Assembly: GCF_030269665.1 (NCBI RefSeq)
Contig: NZ_BSTS01000003.1
Coordinates: 62,001-126,000, forward strand
Source: Actinomycetospora sp. NBRC 106375
Lineage (GTDB): Bacteria > Actinomycetota > Actinomycetes > Mycobacteriales > Pseudonocardiaceae
DNA: 64,000 nucleotides
Direction of reading: 5' to 3'
The notes under the pieces were generated by a model. It did not search any database and was not told the origin of the DNA. It was given only the letters and a program-made list of their open reading frames with translations. Position numbers and translations under genes: made by a program. Below, in pieces: positions 2,822 through 11,892 of this stretch (positions are counted from its first letter, which is position 1; every line of letters begins with the position of its first letter).

Positions 2822-3540
2822 CCCGCTTCCAGAAGGGGGACGTCGTCGAGTCCCCCAACATCTGGCGCTGGCCCGAGGTCTACGAGCGCGAGAACGAGGC
2901 GCAGGACGCCACCGGCGCCCTGTGGGACACCCTGGTCGAGCTCGCCCCGCACGACGGTCTCGACGTGGTCGACGTCGGGTGCGGCGACGGCTACCACCTG
3001 CCGCGGTTCGCGCGGCGAGCCCGCTCGGTGCTCGGCGTCGAGCCCCACAGGCCCCTGGTCGCGCGGGCCCGCGAGCGGGTCGCCGGGCACCCCACCTGCC
3101 GGCTCGTCCCGGGCAGTGCGGCCGACCTGCCGCTGGACGACGACAGCGTCGACGTCGTCCACGCCCGCACCGCCTACTTCTTCGGCCCCGGCTGCGAACC
3201 GGGGCTCGCCGAGGCGTCGCGCGTCCTGCGGCCGGGCGGGATCGTCGTGATCGTCGACCTGGACGCGACCCGCCACTCCTACGGCGCCTGGATGCGGGCG
3301 TCCGCCCCCCGCTACGACCCGGGTGCCGCCGAGCGCTTCTTCGCCGCCGAGGGCTTCGGGGTGCGCCGCGTCGACACGCTCTGGCGCTTCGCGGACCGCA
3401 CGACGCTCGGCGACGTGCTGCGCATCGAGTTCACCCCGGCCGTCGCGCAGCGCGCGATCGACGGCACCCCCGGTCTCACGCTGTCGGTGGGCTACCGCGT
3501 GCACACCCGCCGTGAGCCCACCGGACTCGTACGCGTCTGA
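2818..3540 (+). CDS. Class I SAM-dependent methyltransferase
   Basis: This 240-residue protein has a Rossmann-type methyltransferase fold. Motif I is VVDVGCGDGYH at residues 50-60, followed by an acidic GVEPHRPL for the SAM ribose and VVHARTAYFFGPG as motif IV. It resembles small-molecule methyltransferases of the UbiE/ArsM-like superfamily, but the substrate cannot be told. The GTG start overlaps the cdsA stop by four bases (GTGA), which suggests translational coupling. A longer open frame upstream is only the shadow of cdsA. Confidence 0.85.
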   Translation: MTRFQKGDVVESPNIWRWPEVYERENEAQDATGALWDTLVELAPHDGLDVVDVGCGDGYHLPRFARRARSVLGVEPHRPLVARARERVAGHPTCRLVPGSAADLPLDDDSVDVVHARTAYFFGPGCEPGLAEASRVLRPGGIVVIVDLDATRHSYGAWMRASAPRYDPGAAERFFAAEGFGVRRVDTLWRFADRTTLGDVLRIEFTPAVAQRAIDGTPGLTLSVGYRVHTRREPTGLVRV

Positions 3541-3645: not shown

Positions 3646-3701
3646 GCCCGTCCGATTGCCGGCTCGGGGGGCCGGCGGACGCACGATGAGGTGAGGTGCT
3701 G

Positions 3702-4928
3702 ATGACGGACGTCCTGCCCACTCGGGCCGCGGTGGACCTCGTGCCGGAGCCGTCGTCGACGGTCGTGACGAACCCGGGGGTGCTGCTCTACCCGCGCCTG
3801 CGCAAGTCGCCGTACTTCTGGAAGTCGCGGGCGCACGGCGTGGCGATGTACAGCGTCTACAACCACACGTACCACCCGCGGCACTACGGTGACCCGGTCG
3901 CCGAGTACTGGGCGCTGCTCGAGGACGTGACCCTCTGGGACGTCGGCGTCGAGCGCCAGATCGAGATCTCCGGCCCGGACGCCTTCGCGTTCACCAACCA
4001 CCTGATCCCCCGCGACCTGACCAAGTGCGCGGTCGGCCAGTGCAAGTACGTGTTCGTCACCGCCCCCGACGGCGGGATCATCAACGACCCCGTGCTGCTG
4101 CGGGTCGAGGAGGACCGGTTCTGGCTCTCGCTGGCCGACTCCGACGTCGGGCTGTGGGCGACCGGCCTGGCGCACGCCGGCGGCTGGGACGTGCGGGTCC
4201 GCGAGATCGACGTCGCCCCGGTGCAGGTCCAGGGCCCGAAGGCCAAGGCGGTGGTCACCGACCTGTTCGGCACCGACGTCGCCGAGATGCCCTACTACCA
4301 CCTGCGCCACGCGGTGATCGACGACATGGAGGTCGTCGTGAGCCGCACCGGCTACAGCGCGGAGATCGGCTACGAGATCTACCTGCGCGACGCCGTCCGG
4401 AACGCGGGCCGGCTCTGGGACCGGGTCTGGGAGGCCGGCCGCCCGCACCGCATGCGCCCCATCGGCCCGTGCCACATCCGGCGCATCGAGGGCGGCATGC
4501 TCGCCTACGGCTGCGACATCACCCTCGACACCAACCCGCTCGAGGTCGGCTACGACTACACGTGGATGGTCGACCTCGCCCAGGACGCCGACTTCGTCGG
4601 CAAGGACGCCCTGATCCGGGCCAAGGAGCGGGGGCTCGCGCGCTCGCTCGTCGGGGTCGAGATCGGCGGCGCGCGGCTGGGCACGTTCAACGACGGGTCG
4701 ATGATCGAACCGTTCACGGTGCGCAACGAGGCGGGCGAGTTCGTCGGCGCGGTCACCAGCGCGTGCTGGTCGCCGCGGCTCGAGCGCAACATCGGCCTCG
4801 CGATGGTCGCGACGCCGTCCACGCCGCTGGGGACGACGCTGCAGGTCATCACCTCGGACGACGTGCGCGACGGCGTGGTCGTGGAGAAGCCGTTCGTCGA
4901 CCCGAGCAAGCAGACCCCCAAGGGCTGA
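3702..4928 (+). CDS. DmdA/GcvT-like tetrahydrofolate-dependent demethylase
   Basis: This is a 408-residue aminomethyltransferase (GcvT) superfamily protein. From memory it resembles DMSP demethylase DmdA more than glycine-cleavage T protein: RLRKSPYFWKSRAHGV and YSVYNH near the N-terminus, LWDVGVERQIEISGPDA at 78-94, IPRDLTKCAVGQC at 102-114, VQGPKA, and RIEGGMLAYGCDITLDTNP. Such enzymes move a methyl group from a methyl-sulfonium, methyl-ammonium or methoxy donor to THF, giving 5-methyl-THF. The ATG at 3702 follows GAGGTGAGGTG; a GTG two codons upstream is less likely. The downstream MTHFR-family gene fits disposal of methyl-THF. The substrate is unknown: DMSP, a betaine or a methoxyaromatic are all possible. 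Confidence 0.8.
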   Translation: MTDVLPTRAAVDLVPEPSSTVVTNPGVLLYPRLRKSPYFWKSRAHGVAMYSVYNHTYHPRHYGDPVAEYWALLEDVTLWDVGVERQIEISGPDAFAFTNHLIPRDLTKCAVGQCKYVFVTAPDGGIINDPVLLRVEEDRFWLSLADSDVGLWATGLAHAGGWDVRVREIDVAPVQVQGPKAKAVVTDLFGTDVAEMPYYHLRHAVIDDMEVVVSRTGYSAEIGYEIYLRDAVRNAGRLWDRVWEAGRPHRMRPIGPCHIRRIEGGMLAYGCDITLDTNPLEVGYDYTWMVDLAQDADFVGKDALIRAKERGLARSLVGVEIGGARLGTFNDGSMIEPFTVRNEAGEFVGAVTSACWSPRLERNIGLAMVATPSTPLGTTLQVITSDDVRDGVVVEKPFVDPSKQTPKG

Positions 4929-4934
4929 GCGGTC

Positions 4935-5782
4935 ATGGGAGGGCTGGACGCCGCCGGCGGTCCGGACGTCCGTGCCGCCGTCGCCACGCTGCTGGCCGAC
5001 CCGCGCTTCGAGGTGGCGCCGACGGCCGGCGTGCTCGACGCGGTCGCGGATCTCCCGGCCGGGCGACGGTGACCGTCACCGCCACCCCGCGCCGGGGACC
5101 GGCCGCCACCGTGGCCGTGGCGGTGGAGCTCGTCGCCCGCGGCTTCGCGGCCGTGCCCCACCTCGCGGCGCGCAGCGTGCGCGACCGCGGCGAGTTGACC
5201 GAGCACCTCGACCGGCTCGCCGGGGCCGGGGTGCGCGACGTGTTCGTCGTCGGCGGCGACGCGCGCGAGCCCGCCGGGGACCTGCCCGACGGGCTCGCGC
5301 TGCTGCGGGCGATGGAGGACCTCGGCCGGCGCCCGCCCCGGGTGGGCGTCCCGTCCTACCCGGACGGCCACCACCACATCGGCGACGACGTGCTGTGGGC
5401 CGACCTGCGGGTCAAGCAGTTCCACGCCGACTACACCGTCACGCAGCTCTGCTTCGACGCCGACCTCGTCCGCGGGTTCGCCGGCGAGGCGCGGGCGCGG
5501 GGGATCGACCTCCCGGTGGTCGCGGGCGTGCCCGGGGTCGTCGACGCCGCGCGGCTGCTGCGCCTCTCGGTGCGGATCGGGGTCGCGGACGCGGCCCGGT
5601 TCGCCCGCTCCCACCGCGCGACCGCCCGCTCGCTCCTGCGGCCCGGCCGCCACACCCCCGACGACCTCGTCCGGGGCCTCGCCGCGGGCGCCGGCGACCT
5701 CGCCGGGCTGCACCTCTTCACCTTCAACCAGATCGAGCCGACCGTGCGCTGGCTGTCGCAGGCCCGCCGCACGGCCGCCTGA
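4935..5782 (+). pseudogene. Methylenetetrahydrofolate reductase family protein, interrupted by an apparent frameshift
   Basis: The family interconverts 5-methyl-THF and 5,10-methylene-THF; here it would oxidise the methyl-THF made by the preceding demethylase. ATG 4935 opens a 45-residue frame ending in VADLPAGRR at a TGA (5070-5072). The rest, from VTVTATPRRG to the stop at 5782, lies in the next frame. A GTG at 5069 could start that 237-residue piece alone. The two pieces join naturally into the family pattern (DLPAG-x-TVTVTATP) if one G were added to the GGG at 5061-5063. Later conserved parts are intact: AAVPHLAARSV, DVFVVGGD, YPDGHH, QLCFDADLV and HLFTFN near the end. It is either a real frameshift, a split gene or a sequencing error in the G run. 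Confidence 0.75.
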
Positions 5783-5800
5783 GGAACCCGAGGAGAAGCC

Positions 5801-8311
5801 GTGTCACCGTTCCCCGACCGGGCCCAGGTCGTCGTCATCGGGGCCGGCATCGTCGGCAACGCCGTCGTCCACCACCTCGCGCGGCTCGGCTGGCGCGAGA
5901 TCCTGCTGGTGGACAAGGGCCCGCTGCCCGACCCCGGCGGGTCGACCGGCCACGCCTCGAACTTCGTCTTCCCGGTCGACCACTCCCGCGAGATCACGCA
6001 GCTGACCGCGGACGCCGCGCGCCAGTACACCGAGCTCGGGACGCTGACGACGTGCGGCGGCATCGAGGTGGCGCGCACCCCGGAGCGGGTGCAGGAGCTG
6101 CACCGGCGGATGTCGTCGGCGCGGGCGTGGGGCATCGACGCCGAGCTGATCACCCCGGCGGAGGTGGCCGACAAGGTGCCGTTCCTCGACCCCGCCCCGG
6201 TCCTGGCCGGGTTCTGGACGCCGTCGGTGGCGGTCGTCGACCCGCTGCGGGCCGGCGAGCTCATGCGCGAGCGGGCCACGGCCGCGGGCGCGCTGACGGT
6301 CTCGGCGATGACCGAGGTGCTCGGCATCGACACCGACGGCGGCCGGGTGCGGCGGGTGCGCACCGACCGCGGCGACGTCGAGACCGAGTACGTCGTCGTC
6401 GCGTGCGGCGTGTGGAGCCCGCGCATCGCGGCGCTGGCGGGCGCGACGGTCCCGCTGACCCCCGCGGTCCACCAGATGATCGACGTCGGCCCGATCCCGG
6501 AGCTCGCGGCGACCGGACGCGAGATCGCGTTCCCGATCATCCGCGACATGGACCCGCTGATGTACGAACGGCAGAGCGGGGCGGACCTCGAGATCGGCTC
6601 CTACGCCCACCGCCCGATCCTGGTCGACCCCGACGACATCCCGTCGCTGGCCGCGGCGGCGCTCTCGCCGACCCAGCTGCCGTTCACCCCCGACGACTTC
6701 GACCCGCAGATGGAGGCGGCGCTCGAGCTCTTCGCGAGCGTCCTCGACCGTCCCGACGCCGGTATCCGGCACGCGATCAACGGGCTGCTCTCGCTGACAC
6801 CCGACGGCCACCCGCTGCTCGGCGAGACCCCCGAGGTGCGGGGGCTCTGGTCGGCGGCCGCGGTGTGGATCAAGGAGGGGCCTGGCGTCGGCCGCCTCAT
6901 CGCCGAGTGGATGACGGCGGGCGCGCCCGAGATCGACCCGCAGCACTCGGACATCGCGCGGTTCGCCCCGCACGAGCGCACCCGGGCCTACGTCCGCGCC
7001 CGCGCCGCCGAGGGCTTCAACAAGACCTACGGGATCGTGCACCCCCGCGAGCAGTGGGGCTCCGACCGCGGTGCCCGCCGGTCGCCGTTCTTCGAGCGCG
7101 AGCAGGCCCTGGGCGCGGAGTTCTTCGAGGTGGCGGGCTGGGAGCGGCCGCAGTGGTACCGCGCGAACGAGCACCTCGTCGCCGAGCTGGGCGTCGCCGA
7201 CCGGCCGCACGAGTGGGACGCGCGCTGGTGGTCGCCGATCATCAACGCCGAGCACCTCGCGATGCGCCGCGGTGTCGCGATGATCGACCTCAGCGCGTTC
7301 ACGTCGTTCGACGTGCGCGGGCCGGGCGCGCTCCCGTACCTCCAGCACCTCACGGTCGCCCAGATGGACCGGCCGGTCGGTCGCGTGATCTACACGCCGC
7401 TGCTCGGCCCCGACGGCGGCTTCCGCAGCGACCTGACCGTGGTCCGGCTCGGCGAGGAGCACTTCCGCGTGGTCACCGGGGGCGCGGACGGTGCCCGGGA
7501 CCGGCACTGGTTCACGACCCACCTCCCGGCCGACGGGTCGGTGGCGCTGCACGACGTGACGTCGGCGATGTGCACGCTCGGGCTGTGGGGGCCGCGGGCC
7601 CGCGACGTCCTCGCGGCGGTCACCGACGACGACGTCAGCGACGCCGCGTTCCCGTTCGGCACCGCCCGGACGGTCCACGTGGGCTCGACGCCGGTCCTCG
7701 CGCTGCGGCTGTCCTACGTCGGGGAGCTGGGCTGGGAGCTGCACGCGCCGACCGAGTCCGGCCCGCGGCTCTGGGACGCGCTGGTCGAGGCCGGCGCCCC
7801 GCACGGGCTCGTGCCCGCCGGCATCGGCGTCTACGGCACCACGGCCCGGATGGAGAAGGGCTACCGGCTCATGGGCCACGAGCTCGACGCCGAGCACGGG
7901 CCGGTGGAGGCGGGCCTCGCGCTGCCCGGGCTCAAGGCGGCGGACTTCGTCGGCAAGGCCGCGTACACCAAGGCGCGCGAGGGCGAGCCGGAGGCGACGC
8001 TCTGCACACTGACGCTCGACGGCGCACGGGACAGGGCCGGGCTGCGGCGCTACCCCCAGGGCGGCGAACCGCTCCTCACCCTCGACGGGGAGCGGATCGC
8101 CGACCGCCGGGGCCGGCCGTCGTACGTCACCAGCGCCGGGGCGGCCCCGTCGCTCGGGACGCACCTGCTGATGGCCTACCTCCCGCCGTGGCACGCGGTC
8201 GAGGGCACCGGCCTGCTCGTCGAGTACCTGGGGGAGCGGTACCGGGTGACGGTCGCCCGGGCGGGCCGCCGGCCGCTGTTCGACCCCGACGACGCGCGGA
8301 TGCGGGGCTGA
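5801..8311 (+). CDS. FAD-dependent dimethylglycine/sarcosine oxidase-like protein fused to a GcvT domain
   Basis: This 836-residue two-domain flavoenzyme has the length and architecture of dimethylglycine oxidase and dehydrogenase. Residues ~8-370 form a DAO-type FAD domain with VVVIGAGIVGNAVVHHLA at the N-terminus and GGSTGHASNFVFP, whose His51 sits where the family links FAD covalently. Residues ~430-830 form a GcvT-like THF-binding domain (SFDVRGPGALPYL, LSYVGELGWELH, ARMEKGYRLMGHEL). It would oxidise an N-methyl group and load formaldehyde onto THF as methylene-THF. The directly following ETF genes suggest a dehydrogenase rather than an oxidase. GTG 5801 follows GAGGAGAAG. The exact amine substrate cannot be read from the sequence. 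Confidence 0.85.
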   Translation: MSPFPDRAQVVVIGAGIVGNAVVHHLARLGWREILLVDKGPLPDPGGSTGHASNFVFPVDHSREITQLTADAARQYTELGTLTTCGGIEVARTPERVQELHRRMSSARAWGIDAELITPAEVADKVPFLDPAPVLAGFWTPSVAVVDPLRAGELMRERATAAGALTVSAMTEVLGIDTDGGRVRRVRTDRGDVETEYVVVACGVWSPRIAALAGATVPLTPAVHQMIDVGPIPELAATGREIAFPIIRDMDPLMYERQSGADLEIGSYAHRPILVDPDDIPSLAAAALSPTQLPFTPDDFDPQMEAALELFASVLDRPDAGIRHAINGLLSLTPDGHPLLGETPEVRGLWSAAAVWIKEGPGVGRLIAEWMTAGAPEIDPQHSDIARFAPHERTRAYVRARAAEGFNKTYGIVHPREQWGSDRGARRSPFFEREQALGAEFFEVAGWERPQWYRANEHLVAELGVADRPHEWDARWWSPIINAEHLAMRRGVAMIDLSAFTSFDVRGPGALPYLQHLTVAQMDRPVGRVIYTPLLGPDGGFRSDLTVVRLGEEHFRVVTGGADGARDRHWFTTHLPADGSVALHDVTSAMCTLGLWGPRARDVLAAVTDDDVSDAAFPFGTARTVHVGSTPVLALRLSYVGELGWELHAPTESGPRLWDALVEAGAPHGLVPAGIGVYGTTARMEKGYRLMGHELDAEHGPVEAGLALPGLKAADFVGKAAYTKAREGEPEATLCTLTLDGARDRAGLRRYPQGGEPLLTLDGERIADRRGRPSYVTSAGAAPSLGTHLLMAYLPPWHAVEGTGLLVEYLGERYRVTVARAGRRPLFDPDDARMRG

Positions 8312-8312
8312 G

Positions 8313-9068
8313 ATGGACGTGCTGGTGTGCGTCAAGCGCGTGCCCGCGGTGGGCGCGGAGATCCTGCTGACCGCGGACGCGACGGCCGTGGACACCCGCC
8401 ACCTCGGCTTCACGATCGGCCCGCACGAGGAGTGCGCGGTCGAGGAGGCGGTCCGGATCGCCGGGCGCACCGGCGGCTCCGCCGGCGTGCTGACCGTCGG
8501 GCCGGCCGAGACCGAGGAGCAGCTGCGGTACGCGCTGTCGATGGGCGCCGACCACGCGGTACGGGTCGACGCGCCGGTCGCCGACCCGCAGCCGGAGGTC
8601 AGCGCCGCCGCGATCGCGAGCGCGCTGCGGGACCTGCCGCCCTACGACCTCGTCCTGTTCGGGGAGGCCTCCGCCGACGCCGGCCACGCCCAGGTCGCCT
8701 TCCGGGTGGCCTGCGCGCTGCGCCGCCCGGTGGTCGGCGGGGTGAAGGGCATCGAGCCCGGCTCCGACACCGTCGCGGTCCGCCGCGAGGTCGGCGACGG
8801 GGTCGAGGTCCACGACGCGCCGCTGCCCGCCGTCGTCGCCGTGCTGGAAGGGCTCAACCTCCCGCGCTACCCGACGATCAAGGGCCGGCTGCGGGCGAGG
8901 AAGGCCCGCGTGCGGGTGCTGGACGCCCCGTCCGCGACGGGAGGGCTCCGGACCCTGAGGCTGCGCCACCGCCCGGACGCCCGCGCGCAGACCGTCGAGC
9001 TGGGCCGCGGGGCCGCGGCGGCGCCCGCGGTGGTGGACGTCCTCGCCGACCTGGGAGTGGTGCGCTGA
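8313..9068 (+). CDS. etfB: Electron transfer flavoprotein beta subunit
   Basis: ETF beta binds AMP and carries the recognition loop for partner dehydrogenases. The 251-residue protein begins MDVLVCVKRVPAVG, matching the family start, and has GPHEECAVEEAVRIAGR, LSMGADHAVRV, and LPAVVAVLEGLNLPRYPTIKG, the conserved ETF beta signature with the ProArg-TyrPro recognition segment. It starts one base after the flavoprotein stop and overlaps etfA, so the three are one transcript. This looks like a pathway-specific ETF for the flavoprotein, not the housekeeping fatty-acid ETF, although other uses are possible. Confidence 0.9.
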   Translation: MDVLVCVKRVPAVGAEILLTADATAVDTRHLGFTIGPHEECAVEEAVRIAGRTGGSAGVLTVGPAETEEQLRYALSMGADHAVRVDAPVADPQPEVSAAAIASALRDLPPYDLVLFGEASADAGHAQVAFRVACALRRPVVGGVKGIEPGSDTVAVRREVGDGVEVHDAPLPAVVAVLEGLNLPRYPTIKGRLRARKARVRVLDAPSATGGLRTLRLRHRPDARAQTVELGRGAAAAPAVVDVLADLGVVR

Positions 9069-10054
9069 TGGTGCTGGCCGTGATCGAGAGGGAGACCGAC
9101 GGGACGCCGAGCGCCGCGTCGGCGGAGGTGCTCGCGGCGGCGCGCGACCTCGCCCACCGGCTGGACCTCCCCGTCGCCGCCGTGGCCGTCGGCGAGGCCG
9201 GCGACCTCCCGGAGGACCTCGTCAAGCAGGGGGTCTCGCACCTGCACCTGCTCCGTCACGAGCTGCTCGCCGACGGCGGGCCGGCGTGCACGGGGGAGGC
9301 CCTCGCGCAGCTGGTCGCGGCGCGGCGGCCGGCGGCCGTGCTCGCCGCGAGCACCACGGAGAGCACGGAGGCGATGGCGTGGGCCGCCGCCGCGCTGGGC
9401 GTGCCGCTGGCGACGGCGTGCACGGAGATCCGGCCGAGGCCAGAGGGATGTGACGAGCTGTGGGAGGTCACCCGGGAACGTTCGGGCGGCATCCTGCTCG
9501 AGGACGCCGCGCTCGACGCCCCGGTGCGTCTCTGCACGCTGAGCGCCGGCGGACGCCCGACCGGCGAGACCGCCGCGGCCGCCGAGGTGACCGTCGACGT
9601 GTTCGTCCCCGAGCTCGACGCGGCGGTGCCGCGTGCCCGCCGGGTCGAGCGGGCCCCGCGGGCGGCCGGCATGACGCTGGCCACGGCTCCGGTGGTGGTC
9701 TCGGGCGGGCGGGGCGTGGGCAGCGCCGAGGGCTACGCCGTGCTCGAGGAGCTGGCCGGGCTCGTCGGCGGGGCGGTCGGCTGCTCGCGGGTCGCCACCA
9801 ACAACGGGTGGCGTCCGCACGCCGACCAGGTCGGGCTCACCGGCACCCGCGTGCACCCCGACCTCTACATCGCGTGCGGCATCAGCGGCGCCACGCAGCA
9901 CTGGGTCGGGTGCATGGGGGCGCGGTCGATCCTCGCGGTCAACACCGACCCGGAGGCGCCGATGATGCGGCGCGCGACGTGGTCGGTGGTCGGCGACGTG
10001 CACGAGGTCCTGCCCGCGGTGATCGCCGAGATCCGGCGGCGGTCCGGACGCTGA
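9068..10054 (+). CDS. etfA: Electron transfer flavoprotein alpha subunit
   Basis: ETF alpha binds the redox-active FAD and passes electrons to ETF:quinone oxidoreductase. The 328-residue protein has an N-terminal nucleotide-binding-like domain. Its C-terminal FAD domain carries [49 protein letters not shown] and [11 protein letters not shown], all family hallmarks. The ATG overlaps the etfB stop (TGATG). The usual RPVVDxGW is RVATNNGW here, a divergence that fits a specialised paralogue. It is the last gene of the island. Confidence 0.9.
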
Positions 10055-10126
10055 CGGAATGCTGCCGGGCCGGCGACGGGCCCGCGACGGACCGCCGGGC
10101 ACCGCCGGGGCTGGCGTCCCGGCCCG

Positions 10127-10750
10127 GTGACCGGCCGCGTTACCGTGGACGTCGTGTCCGCGTATCCCCCTCCCCGCCCGCCCGGGCGTGGATTCCAGGG
10201 CTCCCCGCCGCCGCGGCGCGGGCGGGCCGTCCGCGTCGACCCCGTGCTCGTCGAGCTGGGCGCCGGGCTGGTGTGGCTCGCGGTGGGCACCCTCGGTCTC
10301 GGGGCCGACGGGGTGGGCACGCTGATCCTGGCGGTGGGCATCGCGATCGCGATCGGCATCGGGGTGGAGAACCGCCGGCGCGGGCCGCGCCCGTTCGACA
10401 CCTCGCGGTCGGCGGAGATGCTGCGCCTCGGCGGCGGCGTGATCGCGATCGTGATCATCGCGTCGATCGTGCTCGGCCTCATCAGCGCCTCGGCGTTCCT
10501 GCCGGGTCTCGCCCTCGTGCTCACCGGCGGGGCGTTCGTGCTGCTCAGCCGCTCGACGGGCCAGCAGCCGACCCGCTGGCTCGGCCTGGTCGTCGTGGCC
10601 GCCGGGGTGCTGTCCGCGCTGGTCACCACCGCCACGGCGGGCGGGTTCGTCTCGCAGGGTCTGCTCGGGCTGCTCGCCGGGGTGCTGATGCTGCTCTCGG
10701 CCGCCGACCGTGTCGGCCTCGTCGAGATGCTGCGGGACCGCGCGCGATGA
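10127..10750 (+). CDS. Hypothetical multi-spanning membrane protein
   Basis: This up to 207-residue protein has a Pro/Arg-rich N-terminal tail and about six hydrophobic segments. Examples are [76 protein letters not shown] and [12 protein letters not shown]. No catalytic motif is visible and I do not recognise the family. GTG at 10154 (protein beginning [10 protein letters not shown]) is an equally good start, because GTG 10127 has no clear ribosome site. Its stop overlaps the rlmN start (ATGA), so the two are probably translated together. Confidence 0.7.
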
Positions 10751-11892
10751 GCGAGCCCGCCCTCGATCCCGCCGACGCCGCCGGACCCGTCCTCTCCCTC
10801 TCCCCGAAGGGCAGCAGGCGCACGAAGCCCGCGCGCCACCTCGCCGACCTCGACCCCGCGGCGCGCCGCGAGGCCGTCACCGAGCTGGGGCTGCCCGGCT
10901 TCCGGGCCGACCAGCTCTCGCGGCACTACTTCACGCGGCTGGAGAGCGACCCGGCGGCGATGACCGACCTCCCCGAGGCCGCCCGCGAGGCGCTGGCGCC
11001 CGCGCTGCTGCCCGAGCTGCTCACGCCGACCTCGGTGCTCGACTGCGACGGCGGCGCCACCCGCAAGACGCTGTGGCGCGCGAACGACGGCGCCCTCGTC
11101 GAGAGCGTCCTCATGGGCTACCCCGACCGCGCCACCGTCTGCATCTCCAGCCAGGCGGGGTGCGGCATGGCGTGCCCGTTCTGCGCGACGGGGCAGAACG
11201 GGCTCGAGCGCAACCTGTCGACTGCCGAGATCGTCGAGCAGGTCCGGGTCGCGGCCGCCGCGGTGCGCGACGGCGAGCTCGGTGCCGACCTGTCCCGGCT
11301 GTCCAACGTCGTGTTCATGGGCATGGGCGAGCCGCTGGCCAACTACCGGCGCGTCGTCGACGCCGTGCACCGGCTCTGCGACGCGCCGCCGGCGGGGCTC
11401 GGGCTCTCCCAGCGCTCGGTGACGGTGTCGACGGTCGGCCTCGTGCCGGCGATCCACCGGCTCGCCGACGAGGGCCTGCAGGTGACGCTCGCGGTCTCCC
11501 TGCACACCCCCGACGACGAGCTGCGCGACAGCCTGGTGCCCGTGAACGAGCGCTGGCCGGTCGCCGACGTGTTCGCCGCGGCGCGGCGCTACGCCGACGT
11601 CACCGGGCGCCGCGTCTCCATCGAGTACGCCCTGATCCGCGACGTCAACGACCAGCCGTGGCGTGCCGACCTGCTCGCGAAGCTGGCGTCGAAGCACCTC
11701 GGGCGGCTGGTGCACGTCAACCTCATCCCGCTGAACCCGACCCCGGGCAGGAAGTGGGACGCGAGCCCCGCGCCGGTGCAGGCCGAGTTCGTGGCGCGGG
11801 TACGCGACGGCGGTGTCGCGTGCACCGTCCGCGACACCCGGGGCCGCGAGATCGCGGCCGCCTGCGGGCAGCTCGCGGCCACCGCCCGCTAG
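10747..11892 (+). CDS. rlmN: 23S rRNA (adenine2503-C2)/tRNA methyltransferase RlmN, radical SAM
   Basis: RlmN methylates C2 of A2503 in 23S rRNA and of A37 in some tRNAs. The 381-residue protein has the radical-SAM cluster motif CGMACPFC in [17 protein letters not shown]. It also has [13 protein letters not shown], the [13 protein letters not shown] segment, [16 protein letters not shown] and HVNLIPLNP. The C-terminal Cys that is transiently methylated lies in the segment [11 protein letters not shown]. The ATG at 10747 overlaps the preceding stop. Location near cdsA and frr fits actinobacterial order, although the demethylation island separates them here. Confidence 0.95.

Follow-up and report, generated by a model that had tools for sequence, protein, structure and literature searches.

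The stretch of DNA analysed here, hereafter called the window, comprises 64,000 nucleotides of contig NZ_BSTS01000003.1 from Actinomycetospora sp. NBRC 106375. At positions 3702-10054, it carries five genes on the plus strand that are separated by short gaps or overlap each other. The first (3702..4928, with an alternative GTG start at 3696) encodes a DmdA/GcvT-like protein of 408 amino acids with the domains PF01571 and PF08669, for which we propose a function as an N-betaine:tetrahydrofolate (THF) methyltransferase. It is followed by a gene resembling methylenetetrahydrofolate reductase (MTHFR), which is present in two parts, an N-terminal fragment of 45 amino acids (4935..5072) whose stop codon overlaps the GTG start of the body (5069..5782, 237 amino acids; PF02219, 41 bits). 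The third gene (5801..8311) encodes an FAD/GcvT fusion with the domains DAO, FAO_M, GCV_T and GCV_T_C in that order, which places it in the dimethylglycine oxidase (DMGO)/dimethylglycine dehydrogenase (DMGDH) family. We term it DMGO-B and propose that it is a dimethylglycine (possibly sarcosine) dehydrogenase linked to electron transfer flavoprotein (ETF). The last two genes, which overlap by four bases, carry the ETF and ETF_alpha domains of Pfam and encode EtfB (8313..9068; PF01012) and EtfA (9065..10054; PF01012 and PF00766). An earlier, sequence-only reading of this DNA had described five adjacent genes of these families, and this is confirmed by the Pfam and NCBIfam domains, the common strand and the close spacing. 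Its interpretation, a cluster for folate-linked demethylation that has two enzymes for methyl transfer to folate and brings its own ETF genes, is likewise supported, both by the families and by the pairing of ETF genes with DMGO-B in relatives.

The DmdA-like protein is a member of the GcvT/aminomethyltransferase superfamily (149 bits to GCV_T, cut-off 25.6, and 49.7 bits to GCV_T_C, cut-off 25.9). Its best solved relative is 3tfh (226 bits), which we take to be DmdA of P. ubique. The two proteins are 33% identical and share a single GcvT fold, the folate aspartate and 83 of the 174 columns that are conserved among orthologs of the window's protein. The chemistry of DmdA is a direct methyl transfer to THF (PMC5395565). 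Orthologs form a sharply delimited group: they are present in 69 of 200 genomes of the family, a sample drawn by the search tool that includes the window's own genome, with at least 64% identity and a lowest match of 567 bits, and the next level of matches in a search of the genus does not exceed 154 bits. Sixty-three named loci were fetched, and the gene is full or nearly so in 62 of them, 51 of which lie outside Actinomycetospora. Genes in these loci were called with a simple codon-usage caller, and their labels come mostly from BLAST comparisons to a few labelled proteins. The alignment and tree of 61 DmdA-like proteins omit L042 and L062, where the gene is split between frames in our gene calls, and L069, which gave a partial match. 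At L042 (Frigoribacterium sp. JB110, 9953-11197), the two frames encode 112 and 301 amino acids, and 5′ of them lies only a fragment of a DMGO gene. Two other kinds of demethylase were considered and rejected, namely methoxyaromatic O-demethylases (46 bits to LigM against a cut-off of 580, and 56 bits to DesA against 800) and trimethylamine N-oxide demethylase (211.8 bits against 1100).

DMGO-B of the window matches the dimethylglycine oxidase 1pj5 with 540 bits and human DMGDH (5l46) with 306 bits. It shares with both the domain order, a His/Tyr dyad, the folate aspartate and the histidine of the FAD motif. In AgDMGO numbering, the dyad His225/Tyr259 and Asp552 are present in all 42 full-length DMGO-B sequences aligned, and the FAD-motif histidine is kept as well; Asp552 is the presumed folate residue, and 3gsi carries an alanine there. 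Identity to AgDMGO is 39% for the window's protein as compared to 51-65% for four proteins of a second type, DMGO-A, and 50 columns of the FAD domain, four of them gaps, are fixed differently between the two types. Unlike the oxidase 1pj5, DMGO-B has ETF genes adjoining it and a serine in place of a proline. This serine directly follows the HA of the FAD motif in 42 of 42 DMGO-B proteins, where all eight DMGO-A proteins and AgDMGO have proline and human DMGDH, an ETF-using enzyme, has alanine, such that DMGO-B lacks the proline that we take as the mark of the oxygen-using dimethylglycine oxidases. A Pro/Ala and a Val/Ile difference have been named as likely controls of oxygen reactivity (PMC5082570); since the accessible text of that paper gives no residue numbers, the Pro/Ala column was placed from alignments and the Val/Ile column is unplaced. 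Both ETF genes occur in 29 of the 62 named loci, and all 29 carry DMGO-B, as against none of the seven DMGO-A loci. The serine and this exclusive association support the assignment of DMGO-B as a putative ETF-linked dehydrogenase. A number of loci (L034, L037-L040, L047 and others) have DMGO-B without ETF genes nearby. In L067, a protein of 643 residues with CCG and 4Fe-4S domains is encoded between EtfA and the DmdA-like gene and, judging from these domains, it could be the ETF:quinone step.

The sequence-only reading had suggested a search of other genomes for the five-gene order, and the order proved to be conserved in part. In at least 64 of the 69 positive family genomes, a DMGO-type gene starts within 8 kb of the DmdA-like gene, and MTHFR is detected in 51 of the 62 named loci, but both ETF genes are found in only the 29 mentioned above. 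The DMGO-type partner is DMGO-A (41-46% identical to the window's protein) in at least 32 genomes and DMGO-B (at least 71%) in 32. Among the matches listed, 31 of the 32 A-type genomes contain the sarcosine oxidase gene SoxA, 26 of them within 15 kb, as compared to 18 of 32 B-type genomes (p 2e-4). SoxA is also more common in genomes with a DmdA-like gene than in those without (53/69 versus 52/131, p 6e-7), neither test being corrected for kinship. The idea that the DmdA-like protein stands in for GbcA was rejected: GbcA-like genes, all below the family cut-off, were found in 7 of the 69 genomes with a DmdA-like gene and in 6 of the 131 without (Fisher p 0.14). Within the loci themselves, SoxA is present in seven of 62 (five Saccharopolyspora, two Microbacterium). 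In a search of 28 named genomes, which did not extend to L043 and L059, it was absent from 20, and 18 of these have a DMGO-B match at the locus. The DMGO-A proteins of L055 and L048 reach 846 and 948 bits to 1pj5. Furthermore, the L048 locus combines DMGO-A, the DmdA-like gene and MTHFR with a relative of monomeric sarcosine oxidase (above the cut-off for N-methyltryptophan oxidase, below that for monomeric sarcosine oxidase) and a BCCT transporter, which passes the general cut-off for BCCT proteins and, with 593 bits, stays below the 650 of the betaine model. At this locus, DMGO-A and the DmdA-like gene are separated by a pyridoxal phosphate-dependent gene (PF00291; L048:9071-9991).

A comparison within Microbacterium is informative about the substrate. 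In M. suaedae (L033) and Microbacterium sp. G2-8 (L043), soxBDAG and sdaA lie beside the DmdA-like gene and formate-THF ligase (FTHFS), together with glyA in L033. In the tree, these two nest among the Microbacterium loci L036, L040 and L052, which carry DMGO-B, and the DmdA-like protein of L033 is 86-89% identical to those of L040 and L052. The L033 genome contains SoxA and DMGO-A; no SoxA match was obtained in the genomes of L040 and L052 at the threshold used. When the seven A-type DmdA-like proteins are set against the 45 of B-type, the only fixed difference is a column at the ragged N-terminus. We therefore favour, with some reserve, the notion that A-type and B-type DmdA-like proteins act on one and the same substrate.

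A further line of evidence comes from three relatives (L130-L132) in which DMGO-B and EtfAB are accompanied by an MttB-family methyltransferase in place of the DmdA-like gene. These loci also carry genes for a corrinoid protein, a pterin-binding methyltransferase, RACo, an MTHFR-like protein (36-38% identity) and FTHFS. Checks of the MttB assignment cover all three loci; the corrinoid, pterin-binding and RACo assignments were checked in L130 and made by eye in L131 and L132. The L130 MttB-family protein matches a solved "glycine betaine methyltransferase" (9yce) with 393 bits; no NCBIfam model matched the MTHFR-like protein of this locus. In L132, there is in addition a choline/betaine-type ABC permease, which stays under its family cut-offs. 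The exchange of MttB for the DmdA-like protein is the clearest sign that the latter performs the step from quaternary amine to THF.

Taken together, we consider it probable that the cluster is an operon that serves the folate-linked degradation of an N-methylated betaine. The gene neighbourhood suggests glycine betaine as the most likely substrate. Glycine betaine is favoured because A-type DMGO and SoxA represent the known order of dimethylglycine, sarcosine and glycine, and the DmdA-like protein occupies the place of the first methyl group. In this pathway, the DmdA-like protein would demethylate the quaternary ammonium once, with THF as the direct acceptor, giving methyl-THF and dimethylglycine without the use of cobalamin or oxygen, and MTHFR would convert methyl-THF to methylene-THF. 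DMGO-B would transfer the next methyl group oxidatively, again yielding methylene-THF, and pass the electrons to the EtfAB of the cluster rather than to oxygen. FTHFS, which in most other lineages is part of the cluster, would release formate and provide ATP. The direction and order of these reactions and the partnership with ETF are what we infer, as is the use of another MTHFR in this strain. The list of substrates left open by the sequence-only reading is thus narrowed to an N-methyl betaine by the neighbours in relatives, and nothing that we saw points to the methoxyaromatics or methylamines that it had included. The missing sarcosine oxidase of the B-type genomes could mean that DMGO-B also takes sarcosine, that another enzyme does so, or that the B-type pathway starts from a betaine that bears two methyl groups, such as proline betaine. 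AgDMGO and human DMGDH demethylate sarcosine poorly (PMC5082570). As a more specific and tentative possibility, the actinobacterial and haloarchaeal DmdA-like proteins may be direct, cobalamin- and oxygen-free glycine betaine:THF methyltransferases and thus represent a further biochemical entry into betaine breakdown, with the ETF version of DMGO-B alone taking dimethylglycine via sarcosine to glycine and so replacing DMGO plus SoxBDAG.

Several observations weigh against glycine betaine as the substrate, or against a dedicated role of the cluster in its use. In the 18 B-type genomes that contain SoxA, it never lies within 15 kb of the cluster, and in 11 of the 32 B-type genomes neither SoxA nor, at the threshold used, a member of the monomeric oxidase family was found. 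When the A-type DmdA-like proteins are compared to the 28 ETF-bearing B-type proteins, the subgroup of the window, 11 columns are fixed differently, four of them at the C-terminal end. DMGO-B and EtfAB sit away from the DmdA-like gene in L125-L128, and the L129 genome has no DmdA-like match at all. The far end of the L043 locus, at a distance of approximately 9 kb, carries a GbcA-like gene (379 bits against a cut-off of 670). A flanking transporter, for which the sequence-only reading had also suggested looking, was not noticed as a conserved neighbour when the locus neighbourhoods were read. In the window's own genome, there is a separate locus with DMGO-A and SoxBDAG (L103), and a GbcA-like gene (below cut-off) lies on another contig beside a relative of the monomeric oxidases (L136), such that the cluster may serve another betaine. 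With these genes and three BCCT genes in the same genome, the strain need not rely on this cluster to use betaine. To these points are added the broken MTHFR gene of the window together with the location of FTHFS elsewhere in its genome, and the neighbourhood of the Rhodobacterales homologs, both of which are taken up below.

Some of these observations would be accounted for if the same chemistry were directed at another betaine with two N-methyl groups, for instance proline betaine (stachydrine), which the DmdA-like protein would convert to N-methylproline and DMGO-B to proline. No sarcosine would then arise, in keeping with the 14 of 32 B-type genomes without SoxA, among them the 11 that also lack the monomeric oxidase family, and the genome would have reason to keep separate DMGO-A/Sox and GbcA-like genes. 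The 50 fixed differences in the FAD domain and the 11 columns that set the ETF-bearing B-type DmdA-like proteins apart would also fit. Moreover, the MttB family, a member of which replaces the DmdA-like gene in three relatives, includes proline-betaine enzymes (PMC12478193), and on one Phaeobacter plasmid genes of the proline racemase and ornithine cyclodeaminase families are found at a distance of about 5 kb, on the far side of a recombinase. Against this reading stand the single fixed N-terminal difference between the 45 B-type and the seven A-type proteins and the sister species of Microbacterium, which combine the same enzyme with either DMGO-B or sox-sdaA genes. Furthermore, we noticed no gene for proline catabolism among the shared neighbours, although none was searched for by name. 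We thus regard proline betaine as an unlikely substrate and retain glycine betaine as the preferred one.

Homologs of the DmdA-like protein were also found in 29 plasmid records, and ten neighbourhoods were read among the 15 matches listed. In haloarchaea (38-44% identity), MTHFR is near in all six neighbourhoods read and large FAD oxidoreductases in five of the six, and glyA is present in three, FTHFS and ilvA in two each and a BCCT gene in one. Three of these FAD oxidoreductases were aligned; they are 39-40% identical to AgDMGO, and the haloarchaeal DMGO-like proteins in the alignment have proline at the FAD-motif column. The six plasmid loci (L148, L150-L154) vary in the FTHFS/FolD, glyA, DMGO-like and creatininase-family genes that accompany the DmdA-like gene and MTHFR, and in several haloarchaeal plasmid loci folP, pabB and dihydrofolate reductase genes lie alongside. 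A homolog in Lichenihabitans adjoins MTHFR, FolD and PurU.

The Rhodobacterales homologs (47-48% identity) have a different setting, which resembles that of dimethylsulfoniopropionate (DMSP) demethylation: an acyl-CoA synthetase and an enoyl-CoA hydratase in Phaeobacter and Loktanella, and an AMP-binding protein, an acyl-CoA dehydrogenase and dmdD in Marivivens. In Phaeobacter and Loktanella (L145:8016-12114 and L147:7971-12118), an Lrp/AsnC regulator is followed by the DmdA-like gene, OsmC, enoyl-CoA hydratase and acyl-CoA synthetase; an acyl-CoA dehydrogenase is not annotated in the stretch shown. This raises the question whether the window's protein demethylates DMSP or another sulfonium compound, the more so as its best curated match is the DMSP demethylase model NF009133. 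The score of 318.6 bits is below the cut-off of 410, but this argues only weakly against DMSP, because the Rhodobacterales plasmid homologs also stay below it (360-380 bits), including the Marivivens homolog beside dmdD (360.5 bits). Another difference is found at the column of Trp197 of 3tfh, a position that presumably lines the substrate site. It is occupied by tyrosine in 60 and by phenylalanine in one of the 61 aligned actinobacterial proteins, as opposed to tryptophan in 3tfh and the three Rhodobacterales homologs of DMSP-like loci, few as these sequences are. The Lichenihabitans homolog has tyrosine here, and the two haloarchaeal proteins aligned have phenylalanine. Furthermore, the neighbours of the DmdA-like gene (DMGO, MTHFR, FTHFS, ETF, Sox) differ from the setting of DmdA, and a DMGO partner would make no sense for a sulfur compound. 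Profile scans of the window's genes revealed no DmdB, DmdC or DmdD; the relatives were not searched for them. DMSP, which the sequence-only reading had listed as a candidate, is thus disfavoured, and demethylation of any sulfonium compound seems very improbable to us.

The MTHFR-like gene of the window deserves separate consideration, because the reading frame of its first 45 codons is not that of its body. The fragment at 4935-5072 matches residues 4-40 of an intact relative and the body at 5069-5782 residues 45-285, so that the domain, though recognizable, is not contained in one intact frame. Of the 12 Actinomycetospora loci, the window included, nine yield a tblastn match in a single frame and by this measure have an intact gene, and in L009 the gene is broken at another point. 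In L013 (Actinomycetospora sp. TBRC 11914, 11230-11245), it is gone, leaving a gap of 15 bases between the DmdA-like gene and DMGO-B. Outside Actinomycetospora, 41 of 51 loci carry FTHFS, as compared to none of the 11 loci from this genus other than the window; for one locus, L031, its identity was confirmed with a curated model (772 bits, cut-off 652). The cluster had been called complete-looking, which is appropriate for the cluster family, but not for the copy in this strain, and the claimed oxidation of methyl-THF by the cluster's own MTHFR is not supported here, where another MTHFR would be needed. These losses might indicate that the copy in this strain is decaying and without a present catabolic role. 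Such an explanation appears quite improbable, since the other four genes are open and 79-93% identical to those of A. succinea (L008), and two FTHFS genes as well as a homocysteine methyltransferase/MTHFR fusion are encoded elsewhere in the genome. Moreover, the frame shift could be a sequencing error as well as a biological change.

How does the proposed pathway compare to known systems? GbcAB, BHMT and MtgBCD were described in 2025 as ways of taking the first methyl group off glycine betaine (PMC12478193), and by Pfam and NCBIfam none of the five cluster genes encodes the first enzyme of these routes. MtgBCD performs the same overall step, from betaine to methyl-THF, and an MttB-family set occupies the same neighbourhood in the three relatives described above. 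However, MtgBCD is cobalamin-dependent (PMC12478193), and the window's cluster has no corrinoid protein, MttB-family enzyme or RACo. The nearest precedent that we saw concerns SAR11, for which a GcvT-like protein encoded near betaine transport genes has been suggested to have a possible part in the metabolism of glycine betaine. Here SAR11_1303, encoded near opu genes, and the DmdA-like SAR11_1265, encoded beside metF, are aminomethyltransferases (PMC3160333); the likeness to our protein is one of description, not of compared sequences. In Arthrobacter and Corynebacterium, glyA-soxBDAG-sdaA-purU and DMGO genes (PMC3534580) represent the downstream part of the pathway, and a similar locus exists elsewhere in the window's genome. 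Arthrobacter Rue61a grows on glycine betaine, though its genome pathway is listed as incomplete, and in the accessible part of that source no gene is seen to be assigned to the first demethylation (PMC3534580). In titles and abstracts of the open literature, with subscription papers mostly beyond reach, we found no report of a betaine:THF methyltransferase of the GcvT/DmdA type. The two known kinds of chemistry, DmdA-type methyl transfer and DMGO-type oxidation, were thus not found described in the combination that the putative betaine pathway would represent. Glycine betaine is a very common osmolyte as well as a carbon and nitrogen source. If our proposal is correct, a one-protein, THF-dependent step would be a candidate to fill first-step gaps in actinobacterial betaine pathways, it would provide a marker gene for proteins now recorded as aminomethyl transferase or glycine cleavage T-like, and it would offer a simple methyl-transfer module for engineering.

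With respect to its genomic position, the cluster had been predicted to be inserted between cdsA and rlmN, and this is confirmed by the direct meeting of the flanks in congeners. On the left, cdsA (1844-2821) is followed by a gene for an S-adenosylmethionine (SAM) methyltransferase (2854..3540, plus strand), and on the right a gene for a predicted membrane protein without a Pfam or NCBIfam match (10127..10750, plus strand) precedes rlmN. We read the rlmN region in eight congeners, seven of which were chosen because the cluster is not there, and in these seven cdsA, the SAM methyltransferase, the membrane protein and rlmN are contiguous. Five of the seven have no DmdA-like ortholog, and two have one on another contig. 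The cluster is therefore an insertion in a conserved gene order. In the eighth congener (G205), it lies at the same site, and the contig ends beyond the MTHFR gene. Among the 18 genomes of the genus, the DmdA-like gene is seen in 12 (in one of these as two pieces), and a thirteenth holds the rest of the cluster.

Two further loci of the window's genome relate to one-carbon metabolism. A run in L106 (C37:4001-23000) resembles a serine-cycle methylotrophy cluster. Its FTHFS, MtrH-family methyltransferase and homocysteine methyltransferase/MTHFR fusion were checked (the last two above their cut-offs), and malate thiokinase, malyl-CoA lyase, serine-glyoxylate aminotransferase and PEP carboxylase were assigned by eye; the contig measures 28 kb, in a genome with an estimated contamination of 4.9%. 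In L104 (C19:80001-98000), a second set of soxBDAG-like genes and a PurU-like gene come after a type III glutamine-synthetase gene, an arrangement that resembles, partly by eye, the N-methylglutamate route for methylamine.

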